NCBI RefSeq assembly: GCF_010731715.1
Contig: NZ_AP022587.1
Location: forward strand, 6,138,001 to 6,202,000
DNA: 64,000 bases
Reading direction: 5' to 3'
From: Mycobacterium stomatepiae
Lineage (GTDB): Bacteria; Actinomycetota; Actinomycetes; Mycobacteriales; Mycobacteriaceae
Below the pieces are notes generated by a model. It searched no databases, was not told the origin of the DNA, and saw nothing but the letters and a program-made list of their open reading frames with translations. The translations under genes and the position numbers were made by a program. Shown here piece after piece: positions 1,702-38,799 of this stretch; positions within the stretch are counted from its first letter, which is position 1, and each line of letters opens with the position of its first letter.

Positions 1702-1894
1702 CGTGCCTCCCGAGTGTCGGATCGTGAGTCGCGTCGATGGGATCACTTGCCGGCCGCGGCCGAGAGAATTAATTTAACAAGCACTAGAAAAATCTGCTAG
1801 GGTGCGGATAGAATGCTCTTTAGCTGGTCTAATGCATGTCTAATGAGCCTTAAATAACTAGCTGGTGCCGTTCATCCGAAGGGAAATGGAAGCC

Positions 1895-6290: not shown

Positions 6291-6658
6291 TGACCAATTT
6301 TAGCCAGTGGTCGCCGGAATGCCGCGGTATGCCGGAAGAATTTTTATGTGAAATTTGACCGTGTTTGGGGCCTCTTGTTGCAGCGCGAGCCATAGATCAG
6401 GGCCGCACCAGTCCCAATTTCTACGCAACATTAAACAATGTCTTGCCGGAAGGTGTGGGTGATGCCGTGGCGGGGGATAACCTCACCCCGCCACGGCAAG
6501 CTCTAGATGCTTCTCGCCTTCGCGGAGCATCTGCTGCGGTGTGCTGCTCAGCTGGGTATGACAAAAGCGATCCATCCGACGCCAGGCATCTGACGCATCG
6601 ATTTAATATATATTAGATTACTCTGGTTGCGTTAGCGACAGCTCCGATGAAAGCGTTG
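6291..6658. other. 368-base gene-free stretch with a strong hairpin and an AT-rich tract
   Basis: No credible coding frame. It holds a perfect 13-bp inverted repeat at 6463-6498, a weaker one with AGATGCT/AGCATCT arms (6505-6511 and 6526-6532), and a very AT-rich tract at about 6598-6617. It lies between the end of the acyl-CoA dehydrogenase and the start of the TetR gene, both on the minus strand, so it probably carries the TetR promoter and the end of the upstream transcript. Confidence 0.6.
6463..6498. terminator. perfect 13-bp inverted repeat, possible terminator or RNA structure
   Basis: TGCCGTGGCGGGG (6463-6475) is repeated exactly as its reverse complement at 6486-6498 around a 10-base loop, giving a very GC-rich stem. 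There is no T-run on either side, so it is not a classical intrinsic terminator, although many mycobacterial terminators lack one. The position after the minus-strand acyl-CoA dehydrogenase fits transcript termination. A dimeric protein binding site is an alternative. Confidence 0.5.
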
Positions 6659-7807
6659 CTAGCCGGCGATCTCGCGCCCGATGAGTTCTTTCATGATTTC
6701 GGTAGTCCCGCCATAGATGGTCTGGGCCCGGGTGTCGAGATAGGCCCGGGCGACCGGATACTCGACCATGTACCCGTAGCCACCGTGCAGTTGCAGGCAT
6801 CGGTCGATAACGCGGCGCTGCAGCTCGCTGACGTACCACTTGCCCTTCGCGGCGTCGACGGGGGAGAGTTCGCCCGCATTGAACGCCTCAACCGATTTGT
6901 CGACGTATGCCTCGGTGATGTCGAGCTCGGTGGCGATGTCGGCGAGTTCAAAGCGGATGTGTTGCAACGCAGTGAGTGGCTGGCCGAACGCGTTGCGTTG
7001 CCGGCAGTACTCGACCGTTTGCTCGTAGATCGCGCGCGTGGTTGCGATGGCTTGGGCAACGACGCCGAGGCGCTCGCGCGGCAGATGGCTCATGAGATAT
7101 TGCAGCCCACGGCCTTCTTCGCCCAGCAGGTTGTCGCCGGGGACCAGCGCGTCGTCGAAGAACAGCTCGGCGGTGTCTTGTGCGGGCAGTCCAATTTTGT
7201 CGAGCTGACGTCCGCGTCGGAACCCGGGTGTGTCGCGTTCGACGATAAACAAGCTGAAGCCGCGGGAGCCGCCCTCCGGGTTGGTCCGTGCGGCGACCAC
7301 GACGAGGTCGGCCATGATCCCGCTGGAGATAAAGGTCTTCTGGCCGTTGAGGATCCAGTTGTCGCCGTCGCGCTGGGCGGTGGTGCGAATTCCTCTGAGA
7401 TCGCTGCCGGCGCCCGGTTCGGTCATCGCGAGGGCGCCGATCAGCTCGCCGGAGGCGAAGCCAGGCAGCCACCGTTGCTTCTGCTCTTCGTTGGTGAGGT
7501 CAAGCAGGTAGTGCAGCACCAGATCGTTTTGAAGGCTGACAGTCAGGCCGAACGAGAGGGCATTGACCTTCGCGATTTCCTCGCAGACCACCATGCGGTA
7601 GCGGTAGTCGTGTTCGCCGGCGCCGCCGTAGCGCTCCCCGATTTCCAGTGCGTAGACACCCGCCTTGGCGGCGCTGGTGAACACGTTCCGATCGATCTGG
7701 CGGTTGTGATCCCAATCATGCTGGTGGGGAACCACTTCCCGAGCCAGGAATTCTCGGACGGTCTCTCGGTACGCCTCGTGATCGGGGCCATACAGGGTGC
7801 GGCGCAC
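6659..7807 (-). CDS. acyl-CoA dehydrogenase (FadE family)
   Basis: 382 aa, canonical length. It has the flavin motif AMTEPGAGSDLRGI (~residues 122-135), the LNGQKTFISSG strand and the C-terminal LHGGYGYMVEYP followed by IYGGTTEIMKELIGREI, a complete FadE signature. It starts 3 bases after the thiolase stop, so the pair is one transcript. It would oxidise an acyl-CoA whose product could be cleaved by that thiolase. It differs clearly from the dehydrogenase at 3116-4273 and matches medium/long-chain FadE proteins more typically. Exact substrate unknown. Confidence 0.93.
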   Translation of the reverse strand: MRRTLYGPDHEAYRETVREFLAREVVPHQHDWDHNRQIDRNVFTSAAKAGVYALEIGERYGGAGEHDYRYRMVVCEEIAKVNALSFGLTVSLQNDLVLHYLLDLTNEEQKQRWLPGFASGELIGALAMTEPGAGSDLRGIRTTAQRDGDNWILNGQKTFISSGIMADLVVVAARTNPEGGSRGFSLFIVERDTPGFRRGRQLDKIGLPAQDTAELFFDDALVPGDNLLGEEGRGLQYLMSHLPRERLGVVAQAIATTRAIYEQTVEYCRQRNAFGQPLTALQHIRFELADIATELDITEAYVDKSVEAFNAGELSPVDAAKGKWYVSELQRRVIDRCLQLHGGYGYMVEYPVARAYLDTRAQTIYGGTTEIMKELIGREIAG

Positions 7808-7810
7808 CGG

Positions 7811-8962
7811 TTAGATCCTCTCGATGATCGTCACGTTGGCTTGGCCCCCGCCTTCACACATTGTCTGCAGCCCGTAGCGGCCGCCAGTGCGTTCCAGTTC
7901 GTGCAGCAGCGAGGTCATCAGGCGCGCCCCGGTGCAGCCGATGGGGTGCCCAAGGGCGATAGCCCCTCCGTTGACGTTGACGCGCTCGGGGTCGGCTTCG
8001 AGCTCGGCGAGCCAGGCAAGGACCACCGGAGCGAAGGCCTCGTTGATTTCGGTCCGGTCGATGTCGTCGATCGACAGCCCCGTTCGCTTGAGTGCGTGGC
8101 GGGTGGCCGGGATCGGGGCGGTCAGCATCATCACCGGGTCGGAGCCGAGCGCCGACATGTGGTGTATGCGTGCTCGCGGCGTCAGGCCGAACCGATTGAC
8201 GGTCTCTTCGGATGCGATCAGCAATGCGGCGGCGCCGTCGGAGATTTGGCTGGCCACCGCCGCGGTCAACACCCCACCCTCGGTCAGGGGCGACAGTTTG
8301 GCCATTTTTTCCAGGGAGGTGTCGGGGCGTGGCCCTTCGTCATTCACGACGCCGGCATATTCACTGATCTCACGGGTGAACCGGCCTTCGGCGATGGCCG
8401 CGGCGGCGCGTTGATGGCTGGTCAGCGCAAACCGTTCGTTGTCCTCGCGGGAGAGCTTCCATTGGCTGGCGATCAACTCCGCGCCGCGGAATTGCGAGAT
8501 CTCCTGGCTCCCGTACCGGGCTTCCTAGCCGCGGCATCCGGTCCAGGGGTCGGTCGAACCGAATGGCTCACCTGCGGTGAACGCGCTCAGAATGGGGTAT
8601 TGGCTCATCTTTTGCACCCCGCCGGCGACGATCAGATCCGCGGTGCCGCTCATCACCGCCTGCGCGGCGAAATGTACTGCCTGCTGCGCCGATCCGCACT
8701 GACGATCGATTGTCACACCGGGCACCGATTCGGGCAGGCCCGCGGCCAGGGCGGCCGGCCGTGCGATGTCGCCGGCTTGGGAACCGATGTTGTCCAAGCA
8801 GCCGAGGATTACGTCGTCTATGGCTTCGGGATCCAGGTCGTGTCGCTTGACCACGGTCCGGATTACGTGGGCGGCCATGTCGGCGGGGTGCTCGTCGGCA
8901 AACCCTCCTCCGCGCTTACCCACCGCTGTACGAACCGCATCGACAATGAACGCTTCAGTCAC
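7811..8962 (-). pseudogene. thiolase (acetyl-CoA acetyltransferase, FadA6-like) interrupted by an in-frame amber codon
   Basis: Read through, the gene encodes 383 aa and is a complete thiolase: nucleophile Cys89 in DRQCGSAQQA, the C-terminal GGAIALGHPIGCTGAR with the catalytic His, and CEGGGQAN with the second Cys. From memory it aligns well with mycobacterial FadA6, the thiolase of late steroid-ring degradation. Codon 146 is TAG (8525-8527) where the family has Trp in the segment before RYGSQEISQFRG; TGG to TAG is a single change, and the frame is identical on both sides. The start is GTG 8962 with an AT-rich TTAAAT/TATGTA region close upstream, suggesting a leaderless mRNA. Either a real nonsense mutation or a base-call error. 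Confidence 0.85.
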
Positions 8963-9021
8963 CTACATAATTTAACATAGAATCAAAAAGCTAGGCCAGC
9001 CGCGTCGAAGTGGTGATCGTC

Positions 9022-16281: not shown

Positions 16282-19200
16282 GTGGTTTTCCGGGCAGACC
16301 AGGAGATCGGCCTTGACCTCGCCGCCGTCGCCTGGGCGGCCACCCCCCTTGGGCCAGTGGAGGATTGGCCGCAAAGCCTCCGCACGGCGGTCAGCATCCT
16401 GCTTTCATCTCGGTTTTCGATGTGGATGGCGTGGGGCCCGGAGATGACGTTCTTCTGCAACGCCGCCTATCGCCTCGACACCCTGGGCCGCAAATACCCG
16501 TGGGCGCTTGGCCGCCCGGCCAGCGAGGTGTGGGCCGAGATCTGGGATGACATCGGTCCGCGAATCGAGAGCGTGATGTCGACGGGCGAGCCCACCTGGG
16601 ACGAGGCCTTGATGCTCATCCTGGAGCGGTCGGGCTACCCCGAGGAGTCGTACCACACCTTCTCCTACAGCGCGCTGCGTGACGAGGACGCCAGCATCGT
16701 CGGGATGCTCTGTGTGGTCCGGGAAGACACCGAGCGGGTGATCGCCCAGCGCCGGATGGCGACGCTGCGCGACCTTGGTTCCGACCCGAGCGTCGTGCGC
16801 ACCGAACGTCAGATGCTGGACCACGCGGCCCGGCAACTCGCGAACAATCCGTACGACCTTCCCTTCACGACGACCTATCTGTTCGGTGACCACGGCGAGG
16901 CGTTGCTGGCCGGGGTCAGCGGAATCGAGCCCGCGCATCCCGCGGTGCCGCGAATACTTCCCGCCGACGGCCTTTCCGCGTGGCCTATCGAGAAGTTGGC
17001 GCAGGGTGCGACCGAACTGATCGAGCTCGATGGCGATTCGTTGGAGCTGCCTACCGGCGCCTGGTCGGAGCCGCCCGGTCAGGCGCTCGTGGTGCCGCTG
17101 CTACAGCAGGGCGGAGAACCTGTCGGATTCCTGGTGGCCGGGCTGAACCGGTACCGCCCGCTCGACGACGGCTATCGCGGCTTTGTGGAGCTGGTGGCCG
17201 GTTACATCGCTGCGGGGGTGGGCAGCGCGCGCAGCTATCAGGCTCAACAGCAGCGCGCCGAGGAGCTGGCCGAACTCGACCGGGCGAAGACGGCGTTCTT
17301 CTCGAACGTCAGCCACGAATTCCGCACTCCACTCAGCTTGATCCTCGGCCCCGTCGACGAGTTGCGCGGCCGGGCAAGCGGGTTGGACGAGCAGGCGCGT
17401 CAGGAACTGGAACTCATTCACCGCAACGGCTTGCGGTTGGCGAAGCTTGTGAACACGCTGCTGGACTTTTCGCGCATCGAAGCGGGGCGAATGAAGGCGC
17501 GATTCGAGCCTGTCGACTTGTCAACTGTCACAGCGGATTTGGCAAGCGTGTTCCGTTCGGTCATAGAGAGGGCCGGCCTGGCGTTCACGGTGGATTGCCC
17601 GCCACTCGGCGAACCCGTTTATCTCGATCGCGAGATGTGGGAGAAGGTGATCCTCAACCTGCTCTCCAACGCGTTGAAGTTCACTTTCGACGGCACTGTC
17701 GGAATCGCCGTAAGCCGCGACGAGACCGACGCCATCGTCACGGTCACCGACACCGGCGTCGGCATACCCGCTGCCGAAATCCCGCGGCTCTTCGAGCGTT
17801 TCCACCGCATCGAAAACGCACGCGCGCGCTCCACCGAGGGCAGCGGGATCGGGCTGGCTCTGGTCAAGGAACTCGTCGGCCTGCATGGCGGCACCATCTC
17901 CGTCGACAGCCAGGAGGGCGTCGGGACCAGCTTCGTCGTCCGCCTGGCCTTCGGCTCGGCGCATCTTCCGATCGACGAGGTCTCGGCTCCGCCGGTGGGC
18001 CGTCCGACATCCGGCGCGATCGCCGAACCGTTTGTCCAGGAAGCGTTGCGCTGGCTTCCGGGCGATACCAGCGCCCAACCTTCCGACGCCGGCACAACCG
18101 CGATGATGACCGCCGCCGCGCCCGCCGGGAAGGACGGCGCACGGACGCGCGTGTTGATCGCCGACGACAACGCCGACATGCGTGAATACCTGACCAGCCT
18201 GCTACAGACGTCCGGCTACCAGGTCACCGGCGTCACCGACGGGCGCCAGGCGTTGGACACCATCCGCGCGCAGATTCCCGACCTGGTCATCAGCGACGTC
18301 ATGATGCCCGAGCTCGACGGTCTGCAACTGCTCGGGGCGTTGCGGAATGACTCGCGCACCGCCGCGCTGCCCGTGTTGTTGCTGTCCGAACGCGCGGGAC
18401 AGGAAGCCTCCATCGAAGGCTTGCTCGCCGGGGCGGACAACTATCTCGTCAAGCCGTTCGCCGCCGCCGAACTCCTCGCCCGGGTCCGGGCCAACGTCGA
18501 GCTGTCGCGGTTGCGCAGCCACCACGCCCAGTGGCGCACCGCCCTGGTGGATTCGCTGCAGGAAGGGTTCTTCGTCTGCGACGAAGACGGTGCCGTAATC
18601 GAGGTCAACGCCGCGTTCAGCGAGATCCTGGGCTATGGCCCCGAACAGTTGCCGTACGGCGCGCCCCATCCCTGGTGGCCGGACGCGGCGGCCGATCCCG
18701 AAGCGAACCGGCAAGTCCAAGGCGTCTTCGAGCAGCTGCTGAACGAAACCCAAGGCTCTTTCGCGGCTCCGGTAGTGCACCGGGACGGGCACCGGCTGTG
18801 GGTCGCGGCCAGCTTCAATCATGTGGACGACCCGGACACCGGCGGCCGGATAACGGTCGGCACCCTGCGTGACATCACGGCCGAGCACTACATCGTGCAG
18901 AGCCAACTTGCCCTGGCGGCGCTGAACCAGCAACTAGCACAAGCAGATACGCTTGACGACACCCTGCGGGGCGCGATCGGAGAACTACGACGGACGTGGA
19001 ACGCGCGCCGCGTTTTGGCCGCGACGTTCGCCCGCGACGTTCCCCGCGACGAGCCGCCGGCGCTGGTGTATGCCGGTGAGCCTTCTAGCTGGGATGAACT
19101 GCCGACGCGCCACCGGCTGCAGATCGAGGCGCTCCGCGATTCCGACCTGCTGACCACGGTCGCCGGAGAGGCTGGCACCGCGGGCATCTCGCTGCAGCAC

Positions 19201-20412
19201 CCCCTCGGCGTGCTCGTCGTGTGGATCGAATTGGTAGAGCTGCGCCCGTTCAGTTCGGAGGATCACAATCTGCTGAAGGTGCTGGGCGGGCGGCTCAGTC
19301 AAGGCCTGCACCGCGTCTATCAGTTGGACGAACAACGCGAAACAGCCCTGGCGCTGCAGCATGCGATGCTCGGCCCGGCAACTCTGCCCGGGGGCTTCGC
19401 GGTCCGGTATCACCCGGCCAGCCATCCGCTCCAGGTTGGCGGTGACTGGTACGACGTCGTCGATCTCGACGACGGGCGCGTCGCGTTGATAGTCGGTGAC
19501 TGTGTCGGCCACGGCTTGGCCGCCGCGACGGTGATGGGTCAGCTCCGCAGCGCGTGCCGTGCGCTGCTACTTGAGCAGCTCGGCCCAAGTGCGGTCCTCG
19601 CGGGTTTGGACCGCTTCGCCGCGCGTTTGCCCGGCGCGCGGTGCACCACCGCATTCTGTGCGGTGCTCACTGTCGACACGGGGGATCTGACGTACTCCAA
19701 TGCGGGTCATCCGCCGCCGATCATGGTGCACGCCAACGGAACTGCCGAGCAGCTCGATGGCGAGCATGGTCTGCCGCTGGCGCTTCGACCCGACTGGTTG
19801 CGGCCCGAAGTCCGCGTGACGATGCCGGCGCGGTCGACGTTGTTGCTCTACACCGATGGCCTGGTCGAACGTCGCGGCCGCTCGATCGATGAAGGTATCT
19901 CCAGCGCGACCGATCTGATTCAGGACCGTCGGTTCCAGTCGCTCGATGAGATGGCGGACGATCTGATGGTCCGGCTCGAACCTGGGGGCGGCTACCTGCA
20001 CGATGTGGCCACGCTGCTCTATCGGCAGCCTGCTCCACTGTCCATGCAGTTCGACGCCGACGTCGATCATCTCGCTCCGAGCCGTGATGCGCTGCGCGGC
20101 TGGCTGGCCCGGGCGGGTGTCGAACCCGATCAGATTCAATACGTGCTCACCGCCGTCGGTGAGGCCGTCGCCAACGCAATCGAACACGGTTACCGCGATC
20201 AACGCGCGGGCACCGTCTCGCTACGCGCGACCGCGGTCGTCGACGCGCTACACGTCACCGTCGCCGACGGCGGCACCTGGAAGACGCCGCGCAACATCCC
20301 TGGAGCCAACCGGGGCCGCGGTATCACCCTGATGCGGGGCCTCGTGGAGGACATCACGATTCGCTCCACTGAAGCCGGCACCACCGTTCACTTGTACGCG
20401 AGGATCGCCTAA
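16282..20412 (+). CDS. hybrid histidine kinase / response regulator / PP2C (SpoIIE-type) phosphatase / HATPase protein
   Basis: 1376 aa from GTG 16282 with GGAAGGG upstream. In order: a PAS-like sensor (~1-155), a GAF-like region (~160-325), HisKA with phospho-His345 in SHEFRTPL, a kinase ATP-binding domain (N-box ~454-465, DTGVGIP at 490), a receiver with acidic pair Asp628/629 and phospho-Asp672 in SDVMMPELDG, a second PAS (~750-870), a further sensor region (~880-1020), a SpoIIE/PP2C phosphatase (GGDWYD ~1053, GDCVGHG, NAGHPPP) and a C-terminal RsbW-like HATPase (EAVANAIEHGYR, RGRGITLMRGL). No membrane segment is evident. The stop overlaps the start of the STAS gene (TAATG), so the pair forms a partner-switching unit controlling an unseen sigma factor, combining two-component and PP2C logic in one chain. 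Confidence 0.9.
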   Translation: MVFRADQEIGLDLAAVAWAATPLGPVEDWPQSLRTAVSILLSSRFSMWMAWGPEMTFFCNAAYRLDTLGRKYPWALGRPASEVWAEIWDDIGPRIESVMSTGEPTWDEALMLILERSGYPEESYHTFSYSALRDEDASIVGMLCVVREDTERVIAQRRMATLRDLGSDPSVVRTERQMLDHAARQLANNPYDLPFTTTYLFGDHGEALLAGVSGIEPAHPAVPRILPADGLSAWPIEKLAQGATELIELDGDSLELPTGAWSEPPGQALVVPLLQQGGEPVGFLVAGLNRYRPLDDGYRGFVELVAGYIAAGVGSARSYQAQQQRAEELAELDRAKTAFFSNVSHEFRTPLSLILGPVDELRGRASGLDEQARQELELIHRNGLRLAKLVNTLLDFSRIEAGRMKARFEPVDLSTVTADLASVFRSVIERAGLAFTVDCPPLGEPVYLDREMWEKVILNLLSNALKFTFDGTVGIAVSRDETDAIVTVTDTGVGIPAAEIPRLFERFHRIENARARSTEGSGIGLALVKELVGLHGGTISVDSQEGVGTSFVVRLAFGSAHLPIDEVSAPPVGRPTSGAIAEPFVQEALRWLPGDTSAQPSDAGTTAMMTAAAPAGKDGARTRVLIADDNADMREYLTSLLQTSGYQVTGVTDGRQALDTIRAQIPDLVISDVMMPELDGLQLLGALRNDSRTAALPVLLLSERAGQEASIEGLLAGADNYLVKPFAAAELLARVRANVELSRLRSHHAQWRTALVDSLQEGFFVCDEDGAVIEVNAAFSEILGYGPEQLPYGAPHPWWPDAAADPEANRQVQGVFEQLLNETQGSFAAPVVHRDGHRLWVAASFNHVDDPDTGGRITVGTLRDITAEHYIVQSQLALAALNQQLAQADTLDDTLRGAIGELRRTWNARRVLAATFARDVPRDEPPALVYAGEPSSWDELPTRHRLQIEALRDSDLLTTVAGEAGTAGISLQHPLGVLVVWIELVELRPFSSEDHNLLKVLGGRLSQGLHRVYQLDEQRETALALQHAMLGPATLPGGFAVRYHPASHPLQVGGDWYDVVDLDDGRVALIVGDCVGHGLAAATVMGQLRSACRALLLEQLGPSAVLAGLDRFAARLPGARCTTAFCAVLTVDTGDLTYSNAGHPPPIMVHANGTAEQLDGEHGLPLALRPDWLRPEVRVTMPARSTLLLYTDGLVERRGRSIDEGISSATDLIQDRRFQSLDEMADDLMVRLEPGGGYLHDVATLLYRQPAPLSMQFDADVDHLAPSRDALRGWLARAGVEPDQIQYVLTAVGEAVANAIEHGYRDQRAGTVSLRATAVVDALHVTVADGGTWKTPRNIPGANRGRGITLMRGLVEDITIRSTEAGTTVHLYARIA

Positions 20413-29667: not shown

Positions 29668-32600
29668 TCACCGGGCGAGTTCCTCGAAGCGGGCGAGCGC
29701 CATCTCGAGGTCCGCCTCGTCGAACATCTCGCAGTGATTGATCAGATCGCCATCAATCGTATAGACGCTGGTGATGCGCCATTCGGCGTCGAGGCCGTCA
29801 CGCGACGTGCCCTTCGCCACATGGGTAACGACCGCGCCACGACTGGTCGACCGGTGAACGGCCAGGATGCACAGGCTGTTGCCCACCGAGTCGTCCAGCG
29901 CTGCACGAAGGTAGTCCATCAGACGGCCAGGCTCCAGCGTTGCCCCGCGACGATGGTCGAAGTCTACCAAATCATCCGTGCTTTCGGGCATTTCACCCCG
30001 ATTCAGCGCGGCATAGCCGTGCATGATTATCGACCAGGTGTGTGCGTGGGAGGCGCGCGCGCCGTCGAGGTAGCGGGCGTCGAGTTCCGCGAAGGCGGCG
30101 TCGATATCGTCGAAATCGAAGATCACTACCGCCACGGCCTGGCCTTCGGTGTCGACCTGGAGGACGTGGAACACATCGACCTGGAACGCTTCGGGGCGAT
30201 GGCCCCCCTCGGACATGCGGACTCGCGTAAGCGCCAGGCGCTCACCGCGGGTCGCCACGACGGTAGACGTTGAGCTCTTGAACCCAGCTGCCACGCTGGC
30301 TTGTAAATCATCGATCGCGGCATCCCGGCCGTGTCGTATCCCGGCATTGACCCCATGTCGGCGATCGTCGACGGCAATGTCGACCGCGAGGATCTCAGCC
30401 ATCGCGCTCCAGTCGCGCGCCGCGTAGTGCACCTCAAAGTCTTTGACTACTTGGCTGGTGGCACTTTTCGGCCGCCGCAGCTGCGAGCGCAGTCCGTCGA
30501 ACCTCGCGAGTGCGGCGTCGACATCGGCTTCGTCGAAGACCTCGCAGCGGCTGAGCATGTCGCCCTCAGTCCTCAGCAGGCTGACCTCGCGCCACTCGGC
30601 TTCGAAGCCCTCGGGCGAGGTCCCGACCGCGGCATGGGTGATGATCGCGCCCTGCGAGCTTAGCCGATGCACCGCAGCGATTCGAACGGTGAGGCCGCTG
30701 GTCTGATCCAGCGCACTACGAAGGAAGTCGAGCAGTTCGCCGGGGGCCATCGTGGCCCCGCGCCGACGGTCGATATCCTCGAAGTCAGTTGTGGTCAAAG
30801 GGAGTTGGCCCCGATTGATCGCGGCGTAAGCTTCCACGATGGCGGACCACGTGTCAGACTGGGCAGCAGCTTCGCCGGCGAGGTAGCGGGTATCGAGCTC
30901 GGCGAAGGCGGCGTCGATGTTGTCCGCGTCGAACGTGATGACCGCGGCGATCCGCTCGTCGGCGTCGATCTCGACGATTGCGAGCACATCAAGGAAGAAT
31001 TCTTCGTTGCCTTGATCCTTGGCCACAGCGCCGATCATCAGCAGGACAAGTCGCTCCCCACGAGTCGCCAATGCTGTCGACTTCAAGTGTCTCAGCCATA
31101 CATCGGCGATCGCCTGCATGTTGATGATCTCGGCATTCCGTCCATGTCGGACTCCCACGCCCACCATGCGCCGCCGGTCATCGTTCGAATAACCCTCGGC
31201 CAGCATCCTTGACAGGCCGTCCCAGTCACCGGTCTCGAAACGATTCAGGAAGTCCTTGCTCACTCTGCGTGCGCCGTTTTCCAGGACTCGGGTTGGCTGG
31301 CTGAGCTGTTCGAAGCGAGCGATCGCGGCGTCGAGGTCTGCCTCGTCGAACGTCTCGCTGCGGTTGACCAAGTCGCCTTCGACGGTCGCGACGTGGATGC
31401 CGCGCCATTCGGCGTCGAAGCCCTCTTGCGACGTCCCATGCAATGCGTGAGTGACGACCGCCCCGAGGTCACTCAACCGGTGGACCGCCTCGACGCGGAA
31501 GTTCACGCCGGGAACCTGATCCAACAGAGCGTGGATGTATGCGACGAGGTCGCCGGGCGCGAATGGCGCCACCCGGCGGTGGTCGGCGCTCACCAAATCC
31601 GTTGTCACCGGCGGTAGTTCGCGGCGGTTGAGCGCGGCATAACCTTCCGCGACGACCGACCACGTGCCCGCATGCGCGGCCGCTTCGCCGGCGAGGTATC
31701 GGGCGTCGAGTTCCGTGAAGGCGGCGTCGATGTCGTCGAGGTCGAATGAAACTAATGCCACGAATTGATCGTCGGCGTTGACTTCGACGACGGTGAGCGA
31801 CTCTGTGAAGAACGACTTGGGTCCTTGATCGTGGAGCGAGAGGCATCCACGGGTGAGGACAAGGCGGTCGCCCCGCGTCGCAATGGGAGTCGATGTCACA
31901 TTGGTGATCCCGACGTGAGCAATCGACCGCAGGTCCGCCATCTCCGCATCCCGACCGCGGCGGACGCCCGCGCCTATGACCCGGCGGCGATCGTCGCTGG
32001 CAAAATTGTCGGCGAATGTCTCAGCCATGCCGGCCCAGTCGCCGGCGGCGAAGTGCGCCACAAAGCGCGCAGCCGCTTGGGTTGCCGTGTTTTCCAACCG
32101 GCCTGCTGGCTCGATTAGTTCCTCAAATCGGGCGAGTGCCGCGTCGAGGGCTGCCTCGTCGAAGATTTCACAGCGGCTGACCTTGTCGCCTTCGACCATC
32201 GAAAGGGTGATCGCCCGCCATTCGGCGTCGAAGCCGTCGTGGGAGGTTCCACGCGCCACGTAGGTGACGACCGCTCCGCGCTCGTTCAACCGATGCACAG
32301 CCTCGATATGAGTTGTAGCTTGGTCGATTTCGACCCCGGTACCGACGTAGGCAATCAGCTCGCCGGGGGCGAACGACACCGTTTGGCGGTGGTCGATGTT
32401 CACGAAGTCCGGGGCGATCGGTAACCGCTCGTGTCTGTTGAGCGCTGCGAAAACTTCCGTGATCACCGACCACGTGCGCGCGTGAGCACTCGCTTCGCCT
32501 GCAACATAACGGGAATCGAGCTCTGCGAAGGCGGCGTCGAGATCGTCGAGGTCGAACGTGACAAGCGCGACAATCTGCTCATCCGAGTCGACCTCGATCA

Positions 32601-35600
32601 TGGTGAGCCCCGAGACCTGGAACGCCGCAGTCGCTTGTCCCTGCCCCTCGAAGACGAAACGAAGGAGCGCCTGGTGTTCCCCGCGGGTGGCGACCACGGT
32701 CCACCCGACATTGGTGCTCAAGATATCGGCGGTCCCACGCCAATTCGCTATCTCGACATGTCGGCCGCTCCGAATCCCGGAATTTACCACCCGACGGCGA
32801 TCGTCTGAGCACATATCCTCGCTGAGGAGCTCCGCCATGGAATCCCAGTCGTGAACCCGATAATGTGCCAGGAACTGCTCGGCCATTCGGGTTGCCGCGT
32901 TTTCCAGCCGATGCGCCGGCAGGCTGAGCTGGTCGAACCGTGCGATCGCCGAGTCGAGATCTGCCTCGTCAAAGAGTTCGAAGTGATTGACCATGTCGCC
33001 CTCGAGTGTGCACACGATGACGTCTTGGAACTCGGCCTCGAAGCCGTCGCGCGAGATCACATGCGCCGTATGAGTGATGACCGTGCCGCGTTCATTCAGC
33101 CGATGCACGACCGTGGGGTGGATGTTGGTTCTTTGGCTTTGATCGATCGCGGTACGAAGGTATTGGAGGAATTCGCCTGGCGCGAATGCGGCCGCTCGGC
33201 GGTGATCAATCGTCACGGCGTCGGCTGTCATCGGGGGTAGTTCGTGCCGGCTCAACGCGGCGTAGTTCTCAGTGGTTCTCACCCATGTGTGTGCGCATGG
33301 TGCCGCTTCGCCGGTGTGATAGCGCGCGTCGAGATCGTTGAATGCCGCGTCGACGTCGTCAAGGTCGAAGATATCGACCAATGTGATCCGTTCGTCAGCG
33401 TCGATCTCGATGACATTGAAGGCATCGTTTTGTACTGTCTCTGGGTCGCCGCCGGCGGCGCGGACGCGTCCGAGAGCGAGGCGCTCGCCGCGCAGCGCCA
33501 CGACGTCAACCATCGAGATCGTGAAGAGGTCGGCAGCCACCCGCAGGTCGTCGATCACGGCATCTCGGCCACGCCGCATCCCGGCATTCACGACCCGTCG
33601 GCGATCCATACCGGAAACGTTCTCGGCGAGGGTTTCAGCCAGCGCCGCCCAGTCACGGGCCGCGTAATGCGACCAGAAGCGGTCGAAGACGAGTGTCGCC
33701 GCATTTTCCAACCGATGGGTCGACAGGCTGAGCTGCTCGAACCGCGCGAGCGCGGCTTCGATGTCCGTCTCGGCGAATATCTCGCCGCGGCTTAGCATCT
33801 CGTCTTTGACGGTCAGCAGCTCAATCATTCGCCATTCGGCATCGAAGCCCTCTTGCGATGTCCCGTGCGCCGCATGGCTGACGACTGCTCCGATGTCGGA
33901 AAGCTGGTGTACAACCTCGACGTAGGCGGTGATTCCTGGCATGGCATCCCATGCGGAATGCAGGTATGTCTCTAGTTCATGTGGTCCGATCGCGACGACC
34001 GGCCGGTGATCGACTGTTACCCAATCCGGCGCCATGGGGGGAATTTCGTGTCGGTTGAGTGTCGCGAAAGCATCAGCGATCGCAGACCACGTGTGAGCGT
34101 GGGGGGCCGCTTCGCCGGCGAGGTAACGATGATCGAGCTCAGCGATGGCGGCATCGAAGTCTTCGAGGTCATACGTTACGACGATCGCGATGCGGTCATC
34201 AGCGTCGATCTCAACGACGTTAAGAGCATCGTTTTGTGCCGTTTCCGGATCGTTGCCGCAGGCGCGAGTTCGTGCCAACACGAGACGCTCCCCGCGAATA
34301 GCCATGGCGCTCACCATCGATATCGCGAAGCCAACTTCGGCGGCCGCCTTTAGGTCTCTGATGACGACATCGCGACTATGTTGAGTCTCGGCACTCAAGA
34401 CCCGGCGGCGATCGATGCCGATGTAGTCGTTGGCCACGGCTTGGGCGATCGCGTCCCAGTCGCGAGTCGCCATGTGCGACCAGACATGCCGGAAGATGCG
34501 GGCTGCCGCGTTTTCCAGGTGTCGTGCTTTCGGACGCTCTGCTTCGAACCGGGCGTGCGCGGCGTCGAGTTCTGCAGTCGCTCCATCGATGTCGTCGACA
34601 TCGAACCACACATCCAGCGCGAACCGACCGTCCTCGTCGATGCCGACTAACTGGAGCACCTCGCCGCGCGGCGCCCCGGGACTGACATCTGCATTGGCTA
34701 ATTCCGTTTGATAGAGCGCCAACCGCTCGCCTCGCACAGCGACAACTGTGCGATGGAGTTGAACCGCTCCATCCATCTCGAGAGAACGTCGTGCGTCGTA
34801 TGGCCACCGGCCAGACCGAAGATCGGTCTTGCCGAAACCAAGTATCTTGCGGCGACTCTCGATGAGGATGTCGTCCGCGAAACATCCCTCGAACTCGTCA
34901 AAAGCCCCACGATGGAAAGCCGCATCTCCGCGAGCGACCGCTTGCACGCATGCATTGTCGAACCCGACGTGCGATGGCTCGGGTCGAGCGGAAGGCGCCG
35001 GGAGCGTGCGCTCGTCGAGAAGACCCCGCGCCATCTCCACCAGTGCTGTAGCGCCTTTGCGCTCGTACAGCCCGACCGCCTGTTCGGCGGCGGTTCGCGC
35101 CGCGACTGTATTGCCGGCAGCGCCCAAAACGGTTGCCAACGTGAGGCAAGCGTCGCCGTGGTCAACCAGGGCGTCAGTGCGCTCGGCCAACGATACCGCG
35201 GCCTCGGCAACCCGCCGGGCCTCCTCGTGGTCACCGCGGCGGGCCAGCAGGTGTGCCCGAAGTGTGCGCCACCCCATCGACGCCTTCAATGCGTGCCCGG
35301 CGAGACGCTCACTTTCCGAACACAATTCGTCTGCCTCGGCGTCGCGATCGAGCGCGAGGCAGGCCCGGCCCAGCAGCGCACCGGTCTCGGCGGTGTCGGC
35401 GTCGAGACCCATGCGTCGAAAGCCGTTGTAGGCCTTGCGCAGATACGGCTCGGCCGCGGCAGGGTCCCCTACCACGAGCTCGACGATGCCGGCGAACTGC
35501 TCGACTTCGAGTCGGGCGTGGCGCAAGCCGAGCTCGACGACGGTACGCCGGGCCGAGTCGATCATCCGCCGGGCCGCGGCGGCGCGTCCGCGGAAAGCCT

Positions 35601-35676
35601 CCAGCACGGCCTGACAACGGGTCGAGGTGGCTTCGACCGCGGGGGAGTCGGTCGTGATCCGCAACAGCCGCACCAC
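29668..35676 (-). CDS. giant SARP/STAND regulator, 3' part: TPR-like region and tandem NTF2/SnoaL-like repeats
   Basis: The last ~2000 residues of a ~3043-aa protein. The beginning (to about 34960) is helical TPR-like sequence (RRTVVELGLRHARLEVEQFAG, EADELCSESERLAGHALK). Then comes one lone NTF2-like unit and six repeats of about 270 residues (starts near 34515, 33705, 32905, 32090, 31275 and 30465). Each repeat has two NTF2-like halves: one around DW-x-x-(M/L)AE and DDRRRVV, the other around YAALNRHELPP and DHRR, ending FDEADLDAALARFEEL. The repeats are diverged, so the array is old. It is joined to the upstream part by a frameshift at 35686-35698. Such arrays could bind small ligands or self-associate; that is inference. 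Confidence 0.8.
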   Translation of the reverse strand: MVRLLRITTDSPAVEATSTRCQAVLEAFRGRAAAARRMIDSARRTVVELGLRHARLEVEQFAGIVELVVGDPAAAEPYLRKAYNGFRRMGLDADTAETGALLGRACLALDRDAEADELCSESERLAGHALKASMGWRTLRAHLLARRGDHEEARRVAEAAVSLAERTDALVDHGDACLTLATVLGAAGNTVAARTAAEQAVGLYERKGATALVEMARGLLDERTLPAPSARPEPSHVGFDNACVQAVARGDAAFHRGAFDEFEGCFADDILIESRRKILGFGKTDLRSGRWPYDARRSLEMDGAVQLHRTVVAVRGERLALYQTELANADVSPGAPRGEVLQLVGIDEDGRFALDVWFDVDDIDGATAELDAAHARFEAERPKARHLENAAARIFRHVWSHMATRDWDAIAQAVANDYIGIDRRRVLSAETQHSRDVVIRDLKAAAEVGFAISMVSAMAIRGERLVLARTRACGNDPETAQNDALNVVEIDADDRIAIVVTYDLEDFDAAIAELDHRYLAGEAAPHAHTWSAIADAFATLNRHEIPPMAPDWVTVDHRPVVAIGPHELETYLHSAWDAMPGITAYVEVVHQLSDIGAVVSHAAHGTSQEGFDAEWRMIELLTVKDEMLSRGEIFAETDIEAALARFEQLSLSTHRLENAATLVFDRFWSHYAARDWAALAETLAENVSGMDRRRVVNAGMRRGRDAVIDDLRVAADLFTISMVDVVALRGERLALGRVRAAGGDPETVQNDAFNVIEIDADERITLVDIFDLDDVDAAFNDLDARYHTGEAAPCAHTWVRTTENYAALSRHELPPMTADAVTIDHRRAAAFAPGEFLQYLRTAIDQSQRTNIHPTVVHRLNERGTVITHTAHVISRDGFEAEFQDVIVCTLEGDMVNHFELFDEADLDSAIARFDQLSLPAHRLENAATRMAEQFLAHYRVHDWDSMAELLSEDMCSDDRRRVVNSGIRSGRHVEIANWRGTADILSTNVGWTVVATRGEHQALLRFVFEGQGQATAAFQVSGLTMIEVDSDEQIVALVTFDLDDLDAAFAELDSRYVAGEASAHARTWSVITEVFAALNRHERLPIAPDFVNIDHRQTVSFAPGELIAYVGTGVEIDQATTHIEAVHRLNERGAVVTYVARGTSHDGFDAEWRAITLSMVEGDKVSRCEIFDEAALDAALARFEELIEPAGRLENTATQAAARFVAHFAAGDWAGMAETFADNFASDDRRRVIGAGVRRGRDAEMADLRSIAHVGITNVTSTPIATRGDRLVLTRGCLSLHDQGPKSFFTESLTVVEVNADDQFVALVSFDLDDIDAAFTELDARYLAGEAAAHAGTWSVVAEGYAALNRRELPPVTTDLVSADHRRVAPFAPGDLVAYIHALLDQVPGVNFRVEAVHRLSDLGAVVTHALHGTSQEGFDAEWRGIHVATVEGDLVNRSETFDEADLDAAIARFEQLSQPTRVLENGARRVSKDFLNRFETGDWDGLSRMLAEGYSNDDRRRMVGVGVRHGRNAEIINMQAIADVWLRHLKSTALATRGERLVLLMIGAVAKDQGNEEFFLDVLAIVEIDADERIAAVITFDADNIDAAFAELDTRYLAGEAAAQSDTWSAIVEAYAAINRGQLPLTTTDFEDIDRRRGATMAPGELLDFLRSALDQTSGLTVRIAAVHRLSSQGAIITHAAVGTSPEGFEAEWREVSLLRTEGDMLSRCEVFDEADVDAALARFDGLRSQLRRPKSATSQVVKDFEVHYAARDWSAMAEILAVDIAVDDRRHGVNAGIRHGRDAAIDDLQASVAAGFKSSTSTVVATRGERLALTRVRMSEGGHRPEAFQVDVFHVLQVDTEGQAVAVVIFDFDDIDAAFAELDARYLDGARASHAHTWSIIMHGYAALNRGEMPESTDDLVDFDHRRGATLEPGRLMDYLRAALDDSVGNSLCILAVHRSTSRGAVVTHVAKGTSRDGLDAEWRITSVYTIDGDLINHCEMFDEADLEMALARFEELAR

Positions 35677-35677
35677 A

Positions 35678-37677
35678 TCAAGACACCGCCCGCCCGCGCG
35701 GAACCGGGTTGGGTCCCCACAGCGCGGCGAGCGGCGCGCCCGCCAGCACCGCGTTCACTCGCCGGTGTTCACGGGCCCGCCGTGCCGCGGTCAACGCGTC
35801 GTCGAGCGCGATTTCACAGTCGCCGATTCGCCCGAGCCGCGCGAGGCACCCAGCGCGGACGGTATGTGCCTTCGCTTCTCCGGCAGCGTCGTCCAGTTGG
35901 GCGAGTTTGGCGGCGGCCGCACCCAACGCGACCTCCGCCTCGTCCAATCGCTCGGGGTGGATCAACATGGAGAGTTGGCCGTCGAAGCACGTCGCCCATG
36001 ACGTCAGCCGGGCCGAATCGATTGTCGTCTCCTGCAATTGAGAGACCGCACCCGCCGCAGAGGTCACGTCACCCGCGGCCAGCAGGGCCTCGCAGCGGGC
36101 AATCAGTAGCTCGGCGGTTTGGTCGTCGCGATCGGGCAGCTCGTCGTCAAGCTCCTCGAGCGAGTGCAGGGCATGGCGGTACAGGTCGGCCGCACCTTCG
36201 TAGGCGAGTCTCGCCATCGCCTGGTCTGCGGCACGCCGGCAGTAGAGGACCGCCTTGGCCGCGTTTCCAGCCCAGGCACATTCGTAATAGTGATGAGCCA
36301 ACTCGGCCAGCAGCTCGTCGTCGGTGCCCGGCAGCGTCTCCAGAGTCGCGGCGATGCGCTGGTGCAATCGCATGCGCCGCACCGATGCCAACTCGGCGAG
36401 CAGCGACTGGCGCACGAGGGCGTGGTTGAACCGGTAGTTGCCGCCCGGCTCTTCGATGACGATACCGGCTTGGCACGCCTCGTCGAACGCGTCGATGAGT
36501 TCGTCTCCGACCACCCGCTCGACCAACTCCAAGGCAAACCGGCTACCGACGACCGCGGCCGCGGCAAGCGCCTTGTTGGTCTCGACCGGAAGCCGAGAAA
36601 GTCTGCGGCTCACGGCTTCTCGTACACCCTGTGGCAGGGTGCTCTGATCCCACACCCCGCCACTCTCGTCGACGTGGCGCAGGGCCTCGATCAGGAAGAA
36701 GGGGTTACCGCCCGTGACCGACGCCAATGCGTGAGCGAGTTCCTCGTCGTTATAGCCCGCCTCGGCGACGTACGCGGTCACGTCCTCCTCGTCAAGGCCG
36801 CTGAGACTCAACCGGTTTGCGGTGCCGTCGCGGTGCAGGTCGGCCAGCGTCGCCGCCAGGGGCTGGGAGCGGTCCAGGTCCGTGCTGCGATACGTGCCGA
36901 CGATCTGCACCCGGGCGTGGTCGCCGAAGCGCAGCAGATGCCGCAGGAGCAGCAGCGTCGGCTTGGCCGCCCAGTGCAGGTCGTCGAGGATCAGCAGGAC
37001 CGGCGCACTCTTGGATGCGATTTCCAGCAGCGCAACGACGGCATCGAAAAGCGCATAGCGCTCGGTATCGGGATCGGGATGGGCCCTTGGGGAGAGATCC
37101 GGCACGATCTCGGTCAGCCCAGGCACGAGGGCTGGCAACGCTTCGACGCCGCGCAGTCCCCGCAGCCGGTCGGCTCCCATGCATGGCACGAGCGAACGCA
37201 GCGCTTCGGTGAACGGCTGGTAGGGCGCACCGAGGTCCTCGTCGCAGCGGCCGTACAAGACAACCGCCCCTTGCGCATAGGCGCGCTGCGACCACTCACC
37301 GGCCAGCCGTGTCTTGCCGACGCCCGGGTCGCCGGCGATCAGCACCGTGGGCGCCCCGCCCGCAAGCGCGGTCTGCCACACGGCCAGCAGCCGTTCCAGC
37401 TCGCGCCCACGTCCGACGAACGGCCCCGGTCCGACGAGTACCGCGGGCAGGCCGGGACGTTCCATCGGCGGTTCGGCCGTCTGCGGTTCGGGCTGGACCG
37501 ACGCGGTTTCGAGGCGTAGCTCGAACACGTGCTCGGGACGCGGGAGATTTCTCAGTTGACGCATGCCCAGGTCGTTGAGCATGACGTCGTCGGCCAGCGA
37601 GTCGATGACCAGCTCGGCGGTCGCACCGGAACACAGGATCTGACCACCCTCCGCCAGGGATCGCAGGCGCGCCACCC
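35678..37677 (-). CDS. giant SARP/STAND regulator, middle part: AAA/STAND ATPase
   Basis: This stretch continues the cyclase domain (VARLRSLAEGGQILCSGATAELV) into an AAA/STAND NTPase: GPFVGRGRELERLL, Walker A GDPGVGKTRL, Walker B VLLILDDLHWA, a sensor region (RRLSRLPVETNKALAAAAVVG) and a winged-helix/TPR linker (ANSRR-like helices follow). It is out of frame with the parts before and after. Loss of one base at about 37678 (AACCGGGTG expected, AACGGGTG present) shifts into this frame, and a +1 (or -2) change near 35686-35698 shifts out of it. It resembles cyclase-ATPase regulators of mycobacteria and AfsR of Streptomyces. Confidence 0.8.
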
Positions 37678-38799
37678 GTTGACCGCCCGGCCGAAGTAGT
37701 CGCCGTCGCGCAGCTCGACCTCGCCGGTATGTAGCGCCATGCGAATTCGGATGGGATCTCGCAAGGCCCACGGCTCGTGAGTGATGGCGTCTTGCAATTC
37801 GATTGCCGCGGCGGCGCCCGCCGACGGTCGTTCGAAGACCGAGAACGTCGCATCGCCCTCCCCACGCGTTTTGACCAGCCGTCCGCCGCGCGACGTGACG
37901 ACCTGCTCGACCAGCTCGTCGTGGCGTGCGAGTGCTTTCGCCATCGCGTCGGCGTCGGCCTCCCAGGCGGCCGTCGACCCCTCGATGTCGGTGAGCAGGA
38001 AGGTCACGGCGCGTGTCACCGATGGAAGATGCTGTGTCACAGCAACATCCAGTGACGAGTCTTGGGCAACGATTGCGGTTTCGAGCCGTCGAAGCTCCGG
38101 CCCGGGATCGACCCCGAGCTCGTCGGCGAGCAGCGACCGCACCCGTTGATAGGCCGCCAGGGCTTCGCCCTGGCGGCCGGCCCGGTAGAGGGCGAGCATC
38201 AGCTGGCCCCATCGTCTTTCGCGTAGCGGAGCCTCGGCCACGGCCGCCTCGAGGTCGCCGATGACTTCGGCGGCCCGGCCGGTGGCGAGCAGCGCGTCGG
38301 CCCGATCCTCGACGAGCGCGGCGTGACTCTCGATCCAGCGTGTCTTCTCGGACACCCCCCGCTGACCGTCGGGAAGTTCGGGCACTCCGCGCCAAAGGGC
38401 GAGCGCCGCCTCCAAGCGCACCGCCGCTTGGCTGGTGTCGCCGATGGTGGCCGCATCACGCCCCGCCTTGGCTGCCGACTTGTAGCGCGTCGCATCCACG
38501 TCGGCGCCGTCTAGCCGCCAGCCCGCTCCTTCGGTGACCACGAGGCCGTCGCCGAGGGCACGGCGCAGCGCCGAGATATGGGTTTGCAGGGCCTTGGCGG
38601 CGGTGCGCGGCGGATCGTCGCCCCACAGCAACTTGATCAACGCGTCGGCAGGCACGACCGATGCGTCGTTCAGTCCGAGCATCGTGAGGATGGCGCGCGG
38701 CTTGGCGCCCGGAATAGCAACGGGCGTTCCGTCCTGTCGGACCTGGAGAGGTCCCAAAACCCCCAGTTCCACCGATAAAAGGGTACTCACATCAGCCAT
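37678..38799 (-). CDS. giant SARP/STAND regulator, 5' part: OmpR-type wHTH, BTAD and nucleotide-cyclase domain
   Basis: The gene starts at ATG 38799. Residues ~8-95 are an OmpR-like DNA-binding domain (LGPLQVRQDGTPVAIPGAKPRAILTML, TAAKALQTHISALRRALG). Residues ~100-245 are a BTAD domain (ERRWGQLMLALYRAGRQGEALAAYQRVR). From ~265 there is a class III adenylate/guanylate cyclase domain with metal-binding TDIEGST and GEGD. Coding continues in this frame to the frameshift at ~37678; the frame then runs on without meaning to 37552. SARP-type regulators activate nearby clusters; the target is unknown. The next gene to the right is a divergent-looking exported protein on the same strand. Confidence 0.85.

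Follow-up and report, generated by a model that had tools for sequence, protein, structure and literature searches.

Known STAND regulators sense with WD40, TPR, ANK or LRR repeats. EmbR of M. tuberculosis has an FHA domain. The large Streptomyces SARP AfsR (PMC10936776; PDB 8hvr, 8k60, 8jke) combines an OmpR-type DNA-binding domain, a BTAD, a STAND/NOD ATPase and a TPR domain; according to the accessible text, it is inhibited by its NOD and TPR parts and ATP relieves the inhibition. All four elements recur in the mycobacterial family described here, and the SARP part of the window copy matches the AfsR structures with E values of 1e-37 to 3e-36. The family inserts a cyclase between the BTAD and the STAND domain and appends a long array of NTF2-like domains. 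Three proteins score far below the equivalog cut-off (1430 bits) of the NCBIfam AfsR model NF053617, with 158 bits for the window protein P0003 and 134 and 157 bits for the intact relatives P0046 and P0060. EmbR (PDB 2fez), the best PDB match (E 4.5e-41), has similar DNA-binding and BTAD domains, but consists of only 388 residues and lacks cyclase, STAND domain and array.

Similar comparisons can be made with other protein families. The mycobacterial Mclx proteins (Rv0386, Rv1358, Rv2488c) are described, in the accessible text of PMC4452763, as fusions of a class III cyclase with AAA/NB-ARC and DNA-binding domains that frequently decay by frameshift, as the window copy probably has. Their LuxR HTH is C-terminal, whereas the SARP part is N-terminal here, and that text names no NTF2 array for Mclx; Pfam profiles found no LuxR HTH in the window proteins P0001 to P0003, in which the array forms the C-terminus. 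The ECF41 and ECF56 sigma factors are likewise transcription factors with a fused C-terminal SnoaL_2/NTF2 domain that affects activity (PMC3426412, PMC7730460, accessible text), but this domain is single, and the available part of PMC7730460 names neither STAND, array nor allele exchange. Fungal NLRs pair a STAND switch with a C-terminal WD, ANK or TPR array whose repeats differ in number and undergo shuffling (PMC4986451, accessible portion). The literature searched holds no description of a STAND-SARP-cyclase protein with an NTF2 array, in agreement with the preliminary description, which knew of no function for it.

Reading frames of the window copy

The window, a 64,000-nucleotide stretch of the Mycobacterium stomatepiae chromosome, had been thought to contain one gene of exactly 3044 codons. 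This span lies on the minus strand and its coding signal falls into three pieces, 38799-37678, 37678-35696 and 35700-29668 (Table 1). The first frame is interrupted by 14 internal stops between codons 416 and 1015, and two frame changes separate the pieces, the third being back in the first frame; because these changes cancel, the length remains divisible by three. The internal stops and frame changes, evident from tblastn pieces and ORFs alike, rule out a single gene: the window copy is three ORFs. The first (P0003) reads on in the wrong register until it meets a stop at 37552, and the close relatives listed among its matches align with it only to residue 375, with the exception of G218, which matches to residue 414 with 3 stops. 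The third (P0001) encodes 2002 aa of TPR-like helices followed by the array.

Table 1. Features of the window locus
Feature	Position	Strand	Content or basis
Piece 1 of chassis	37678..38799	(-)	OmpR-type DNA-binding, BTAD, first part of class III cyclase
OmpR-type DNA-binding domain (Trans_reg_C)	about 38703-38548	(-)	Pfam 31.4 bits vs cut-off 26.2, E 2e-7
BTAD	38499-38071	(-)	Pfam 139.3 bits vs cut-off 22.1, E 1.6e-40
Class III cyclase (Guanylate_cyc)	from about 38013	(-)	E 6e-4, slightly under Pfam cut-off
First frame change, within cyclase domain	37670..37690	(-)	tblastn pieces meet at 37678
Piece 2, another frame	35696..37678	(-)	Remaining cyclase, STAND/AAA_16 ATPase, TPR-like helices
STAND/AAA_16 ATPase	37423-36908	(-)	AAA_16 E 8e-29, over Pfam cut-off; Walker A and B by eye
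Second frame change, within TPR region	35685..35705	(-)	tblastn pieces meet at 35696-35700
Piece 3 start, TPR-like helices	34924..35700	(-)	P0001 residues 1-251; possible GTG start at 35676
Lone A-type NTF2 half	34543..34923	(-)	27-36% identity to A halves, 15-21% to B halves
AB unit 1, 269 aa	33736..34542	(-)	Unit alignment
AB unit 2, 268 aa	32932..33735	(-)	Unit alignment
AB unit 3, 270 aa	32122..32931	(-)	Unit alignment
AB unit 4, 271 aa	31309..32121	(-)	Unit alignment; AlphaFold-modelled
AB unit 5, 271 aa	30496..31308	(-)	Unit alignment
AB unit 6, 275 aa, and stop codon	29668..30495	(-)	Unit alignment

The domains proposed earlier are present: Trans_reg_C, BTAD, AAA_16 and SnoaL_2 (E 7.6e-18, six stretches) exceed their Pfam cut-offs, with Guanylate_cyc and TPR_12 (E 2e-5, 25.3 bits against 30.1) slightly below. 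The OmpR-type domain and BTAD at the N-terminus place the protein in the SARP family; the STAND/NOD ATPase and TPR that define large SARPs occur together with them in one protein at 53 of 66 related loci, and in other reading frames in the window. The second metal motif of the cyclase is GEGD instead of the usual GDG, so that, judged from sequence, cyclase activity of the chassis is doubtful. The cyclase sequence matches Ma1120 and 3mr7.

Since the chassis is split into three ORFs, this copy has probably been inactivated recently. The two breaks could also be sequence errors, and the reading in which both arose in assembly and the strain itself has an intact gene deserves a little less than even credence. 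Its appeal is that the window pieces are 85-90% identical to an intact relative right up to the breaks, that G+C-rich runs lie at both, and that the two cancel. However, frames of 6,793, 4,183, 4,135 and 3,709 aa are open on the same chromosome, which gives no support to a generally poor assembly; five other loci (L025, L051, L071, L081, L086) are also broken, elsewhere in the gene; and the related mclx genes often decay by frameshift (PMC4452763, accessible text). A programmed frameshift as a family feature is rejected, as broken loci break at differing residues and the chassis forms one tblastn piece in 53 of 66 loci, a count to which L031 and L075 are extra (each with a second match next to an unbroken copy) and which may hide in-frame stops, L029 and L054 matching fully while their array ORFs are without part or all of the chassis.

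Architecture of the NTF2-like array

In the 2002-aa ORF the array comprises one lone and twelve paired NTF2-like domains, that is, six AB units of 268-275 aa with 41-52% mutual identity. The preliminary description of six repeats of about 270 residues, each in two halves, plus a lone unit thus holds, and the motifs it quoted, DDRRRVV and YAALNRHELPP among them, are kept across 510 units of relatives. Pairwise sequence comparison shows no clear likeness between A and B halves: the scores of three A-B pairs, and of the lone half against B1, do not exceed the highest of 300 shuffles, and A4-B4 scores 3.5 s.d. above the shuffle mean. The NTF2 fold anticipated for the repeat is borne out by a confident AlphaFold model of unit 4 (pLDDT 92.7, pTM 0.88), in which each half has the a-a-b-b-a-b-b-b-b order of the superfamily, with helices on a strongly bent sheet. 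The proposal of an AfsR-like regulator that ends in tandem NTF2/SnoaL domains was correct. A three-unit model reaches a pTM of 0.50, and the predicted arrangement of units along the array is unsure; its fold search returned the same families again and no match to the array as a whole.

Fold neighbours of the unit include ketosteroid isomerase (KSI), Rv0760c with estradiol, and Lsd19. The top Foldseek matches to the whole unit are the Lsd19/MonB epoxide hydrolases (PDB 3rga, 4rzm, 9kw6), which, like the AB unit, have two NTF2 domains per chain; the relative placement of these domains differs (rmsd about 12 A), and the enzymes have neither array nor regulator. A unit profile searched against PDB sequences found three matches, all weak, the best of them at E 0.06.

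At 53 of the 66 related loci the chassis is in one ORF with the array: 47 have a single array ORF, in five the array is broken and continues in another, and L075 carries a further copy of the gene. The order in relatives is OmpR-type DNA-binding domain, BTAD, class III cyclase, STAND ATPase and TPR, then a lone NTF2 domain and A-B pairs, which number from 2 to at least 22 among the 47; the longest relative has 7,523 aa. Alternation of A and B is regular in 102 of 120 proteins (14 of the others start with B and four are irregular), in a comparison in which the maximum protein length searched capped the unit counts. Of 248 genomes sampled across the genus, 110 contain the family, and among 101 genus genomes that match the chassis N-terminus at E<=1e-90 the array was also matched in 100. 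Some of the profile searches scored only 6 to 10 candidates per genome. The 53 loci have no constant neighbour gene that would hint at a target, the commonest flanking family occurring at 16. At nine of them a SpoIIE/HATPase gene adjoins the array, and at 11 a STAS gene.

Turnover of array domains between close relatives

The new point, which the preliminary description missed along with the broken frames, is that the chassis is conserved and the array variable between close relatives. Proteins with 98.8-99.4% identical chassis have most array domains in common at 88-100% identity, but 3-6 of 15 domains find a best partner in the other array at only 44-88%. In 13 of the 14 closest pairs the chassis is 92-96% identical (dN/dS 0.07-0.12), and matched units are 53-98% identical (pS 0.035-0.64); these unit identities come from best-partner alignment and are, if anything, too high. 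The identity bins cover 548 of 1,378 pairs, those with three or more matched units. Between L073 and L049, nucleotide identity switches sharply near A/B borders. In-register replacement, by domains to which the other array offers no close match at any position, affects B2-A3 and B14 in P0060/P0069, and A0, B2 and A3 in P0046/P0059. Among P0046, P0059, P0080 and P0085, alleles of domains 1 and 3 occur in all four combinations.

Comparison position by position overstates replacement where units have shifted: with gaps allowed, the domains shared at 88% or more rise from 5 to 9 of 15 in P0055/P0088, from 10 to 11 in P0092/P0097 and from 1 to 3 in P0081/P0100. The best explanation and its extension to strain-specific receptor repertoires are graded slightly lower for this reason. 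From these alignments, modules are gained, lost, shifted and exchanged between close relatives, and because part of the array difference is unit shift by gain or loss, some apparent exchange could be differential loss. Concerted evolution within one array is not supported, the best within-array identity (median 54%, highest 79%) being lower than the best identity to another locus (67%). The idea that units were recently transferred wholesale was rejected: among 74,305 between-locus unit pairs only 5, from two locus pairs, reach chassis-level identity.

Possible role of the array

On balance, we lean towards reading the window locus as a mycobacterial transcription regulator of the STAND type, present here in a frame-broken copy, with an array that would be a ligand-pocket sensor reassorted between strains. 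By analogy with proposals for AfsR and MalT, the C-terminal region would keep the protein in an off state; a ligand in one or more NTF2 pockets would release it, after which ATP would bind and the SARP part would activate promoters, while the cyclase may contribute a nucleotide signal. Each unit lineage would keep its own pocket specificity in such a sensor, and recombination would reshuffle these specificities among strains. That the array could detect several lipid or polyketide signals is plausible, given the fold neighbours KSI, Rv0760c with estradiol, and Lsd19.

An NLR-like conflict or allorecognition receptor, whose array would sense non-self (phage or competitor products) with alleles held by frequency-dependent selection, is unlikely. 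A STAND ATPase with a highly variable array that turns over its domains between near-identical chassis would fit such a receptor, as would the parallels with hypervariable, shuffled fungal WD repeats (PMC4986451, accessible text) and with putative sensors diversified by DGRs (PMC10907252, likewise). But the fungal type has repeats more than 85% identical within the array and under positive selection, against the within-array values given above. The roughly 270-aa units are under purifying selection within lineages (pN/pS 0.26, 30 independent pairs), and positive selection was not found in these pairs on the presumed pocket face (0.18; all reported values 0.18-0.27). The choice of the two strand faces was made in part with the entropies already known, so the entropy contrast is not independent and pN/pS is the fairer test. 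The N-terminus, moreover, is a transcription activator with a cyclase and not a killing domain, and the sole match from a PADLOC search of the defence library was a weak one to a Pycsar cyclase (E 4e-4).

It is improbable that the units, rather than forming a sensor, are enzymes or carriers of substrates that resemble KSI, epoxide hydrolases or polyketide cyclases and are mounted on a regulator. Position 110, which we take to be the column of the second KSI acid, D99, is among the most variable (G/N/S/Q/D/V, H 3.6 bits), so that acid is not kept, and the array is fused to a DNA-binding STAND switch. For enzymes speak the Lsd19/MonB match and the near-invariant D44 of A (98%), with D180 of B (98%) in a like place: D44 occupies the KSI D38 column, aligned with the DPVGS Asp of 6p3l (a weak match, E 0.06), and this motif fits tKSI D38-P39-V40-S42 as named in PDB titles. 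Least probable, by a hair, is a loosely constrained repeat under neutral expansion, contraction and recombination, to which the range of unit numbers, the unit shifts between close relatives and the lack of a confident inter-unit geometry would be agreeable, but against which stand frames open up to 7,523 aa, the near-invariant motifs, the pN/pS of 0.26 and the regular alternation.

The sensor reading can be extended, more tentatively, to a constant STAND-SARP-cyclase switch carrying an exchangeable array of NTF2 pairs, in which populations would pool single-domain alleles and recombination would reassort them into strain-specific sets of detected molecules. If true, this would make the system a bacterial analogue of combinatorial receptor repertoires. 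The repeats in this family consist of entire domains with a ligand-pocket fold, and they differ between proteins whose switch is nearly the same. Copies with broken reading frames also occur and are easily mis-annotated, which calls for caution. The sensor reading offers a working hypothesis for a widespread mycobacterial protein family, and a directly testable system in which one chassis comes with naturally swapped units, each of which can be produced singly for ligand screens.

Constancy of the chassis and variation of the array

The portion of the gene preceding the array, with its DNA-binding, BTAD, cyclase, STAND ATPase and TPR parts (the chassis), is well conserved: the window's chassis modules are 66–93% identical to those of other loci, and the median chassis identity between 53 loci is 82.7%. 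The array consists of a lone A half and units with two NTF2-like halves, A and B. In the 548 of 1,378 locus pairs for which three or more units were matched (paired between two loci by alignment), these units average 55–58% identity at a chassis identity of 75–90% (525 pairs), with means of 67.6% at 90–95% (20 pairs) and 80.6% above 95% (3 pairs). Chassis dN/dS is 0.07–0.12 in 13 of the 14 closest pairs and 0.31 in the fourteenth, which is almost identical. Across those 13 pairs, the pS of matched units extends from 0.035 to 0.64, and for Mycobacterium parascrofulaceum (L073) and M. scrofulaceum (L049) alone it extends from 0.035 to 0.53, against 0.22 for the chassis. Therefore, the units within one gene differ in history. 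Between the same two loci, nucleotide identity jumps near the A/B border inside units 1 and 5:6, rising in the latter from 40–80% in A to 91–100% over most of B; the neighbours of this unit share 96–98% protein identity.

Six groups of related proteins with 15 domains each were compared per domain, by position and with gaps, a domain being considered partnerless if its best identity anywhere in the other array was below 88% in the gapped comparison; one-species status is indicated by a shared name for P0055/P0088 only (both M. scrofulaceum). In the six pairs measured, whole-chassis identity is 98.9–99.4%, with every 100-residue stretch at 97% or more. Over the last ~650 chassis residues, pairs of the foursome P0046, P0059, P0080 and P0085 are 98.8–99.2% identical, with P0081/P0100 (97.0%) and P0029/P0079 (94.7%) further apart. 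Partnerless domains number 3 to 5 in the six pairs of the foursome (best identity 52–63%), 6 in P0055/P0088 (48–88%), 4 in P0060/P0069 (51–78%), 4 in P0092/P0097 (44–82%), 12 in P0081/P0100 and 10 in P0029/P0079. Some changes are like-for-like and in register (B2-A3 and B14 in P0060/P0069; A0, B2 and A3 in P0046/P0059; A1, B2 and A3 in P0046/P0085). Shifts account for others, such as a run of five domains matching one unit off in P0055/P0088, and domain 5 of P0080, a close relative of domain 3 of P0059 and P0085. In the foursome, the alternatives at domain 1 and domain 3 are combined in all four possible ways without any change of position, which favours recombination, although gain and loss may have contributed. 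Contigs of 5.6 and 6.7 Mb belong to the P0060 and P0097 clusters, and so not all array differences rest on short contigs. The window's closest relative by its TPR part (P0041, 90.5%) has 13 domains, as does the window, and these are 36–87% identical position by position.

Array size is likewise variable. A single ORF contains all five chassis modules together with array domains at 53 of 66 loci, five of which (L040, L062, L068, L069, L084) have the array then split into a second ORF; a single array ORF, found in 47, holds 2 to 22 units (2 reach the contig end), and L075 has a second gene copy. The longest frame among these loci, 7,523 codons with 46 NTF2 domains, belongs to Mycobacterium sp. 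1164966.3 (L045:473-23041), while a frame with 47 NTF2 domains at L039 is cut by the contig end. An order of one or a few A domains followed by A-B alternation fits 102 of 120 proteins; 14 start with B and 4 are irregular.

Reading frames of the window copy

The preliminary description took this region as one gene of exactly 3044 codons. In the frame of its start, the span has the end stop at 29668 and 14 internal stops from codon 416 to 1015, and it is made up of three coding pieces; since the two frame changes cancel, its length is still divisible by three.

Pieces of the array gene and other genes in the window
Feature	Coordinates	Strand	Remarks
Piece 1: DNA-binding, BTAD, first part of class III cyclase	38799-37678	-	
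Piece 2: cyclase remainder, STAND ATPase, TPR-like helices	37678-35696	-	other frame
Piece 3: TPR-like helices and array	35700-29668	-	first frame again; 2002 codons from GTG at 35676
SnoaL_2 fused to enoyl-CoA hydratase/isomerase domain	1865-3112	+	415-aa ORF; adjoins acyl-CoA dehydrogenase gene
ORF without a Pfam match at 1e-4	6647-8980	+	777 aa
Hybrid: GAF, histidine kinase, receiver, PAS, SpoIIE phosphatase, anti-sigma-like HATPase	16282-20412	+	1376 aa

Close relatives listed match piece 1 only to residue 375, the point at which the window leaves frame, with the exception of one sampled genome (G218) whose own copy has 3 stops. Up to the breaks, the pieces still share 85–90% identity with an intact relative, and so the breaks are either recent or errors. 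Very long frames otherwise stay open on this chromosome, and breaks occur in other loci at different places. The M. lepraemurium copy (L081) has many frame changes in both chassis and array; M. ahvazicum (L040) shares much of the window's gene neighbourhood and has its frame break within the array, not the chassis. Frameshift decay is common in the related mclx genes, with at least one truncated in 51.3% of a panel (PMC4452763). Relatives of the 1376-aa hybrid occur in the flanking regions at 9 of 53 array loci; in 9 loci, a divergent SpoIIE/HATPase gene stands ~80 bases upstream.

Distribution

Named proteins among the 120 listed of 1,288 matches are mycobacterial, and 65 of 66 loci are named mycobacteria or Mycobacteriaceae, the other (L039) being a metagenome bin named Actinomycetota; the unit profile is also matched by fragments in bins that bear the names Ilumatobacteraceae and Candidatus Cybelea. 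Within the genus, the window's array piece is matched in 110 of 248 sampled genomes (E≤1e-20) and the chassis N-terminus in 101 (E≤1e-90), both occurring in 100, the chassis only in 1 and the array only in 10. The unit profile is matched in 13 of 251 genomes (1 of 31 genera) in the family sample, 14 of 394 (1 of 137 genera) in the class sample and 7 of 396 (2 of 236 genera) in the phylum sample, where the single outside genome, G869, reaches only E 1e-28. Outside the genus, 7 of 296 genomes drawn from the class match the chassis N-terminus, in ORFs of 1097–1324 aa that are too short for chassis and array. Judging from these counts and short ORFs, the array probably originated within, or spread mainly among, mycobacteria. 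Three arrays of divergent units (E 1e-17 to 1e-28), at G092:C12:601777-605850 (ORF of 2452 aa), G011:C1:4778119-4781364 (2498 aa) and G869:C10:210150-212147 (1877 aa; another class of the phylum), are possibly a sister repeat family.

The open-access literature searched has no paper that brings together SnoaL and BTAD, or SnoaL, adenylate cyclase and AAA, in mycobacteria, and a description may exist elsewhere; among the matches listed, judged by title and abstract start, none concerned a tandem SnoaL regulator in Mycobacterium. Kaur et al. (PMC7159879) mention neither SnoaL nor BTAD and name NTF2 once, as a ligand-binding domain, and the DGR paper (PMC10907252) is without NTF2, SnoaL or Mycobacter-. 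Passages of a 2004 cyclase survey (PMC2447327), in whose text BTAD occurs twice, are a possible early mention of the BTAD-cyclase fusion.

Putative function and selection on units

In AfsR, the NOD and TPR parts hold the protein down and ATP releases it (PMC10936776). The chassis here is AfsR-like, and the array occupies the place of the sensor in STAND proteins. In ECF41 sigma factors, activity is affected by a fused SnoaL_2 domain (PMC7730460, PMC3426412). In the proposed mechanism, a ligand would be bound in the NTF2 pockets, its binding would release the STAND part, and the released switch would activate promoters through the SARP part, perhaps with an additional cyclic nucleotide signal from the cyclase. 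Given GEGD at its second metal motif, the cyclase may be weak or silent.

Over 30 independent unit pairs of 80–98.5% identity, pN/pS is 0.26 overall, with 0.18 for the presumed pocket strand face (aligned with ketosteroid-isomerase pocket residues, the faces being chosen partly by eye), 0.21 for the other face and 0.27 elsewhere. Over 510 units, the presumed pocket face is the more variable, with a mean entropy per strand of 2.5–3.1 versus 0.8–1.6 bits. On this combined evidence, the presumed pocket differs between unit lineages but is kept within each. This pattern of difference between lineages and constancy within them speaks against fast adaptive mutation of the presumed pocket and for unit lineages whose putative specificities would be distinct and maintained.
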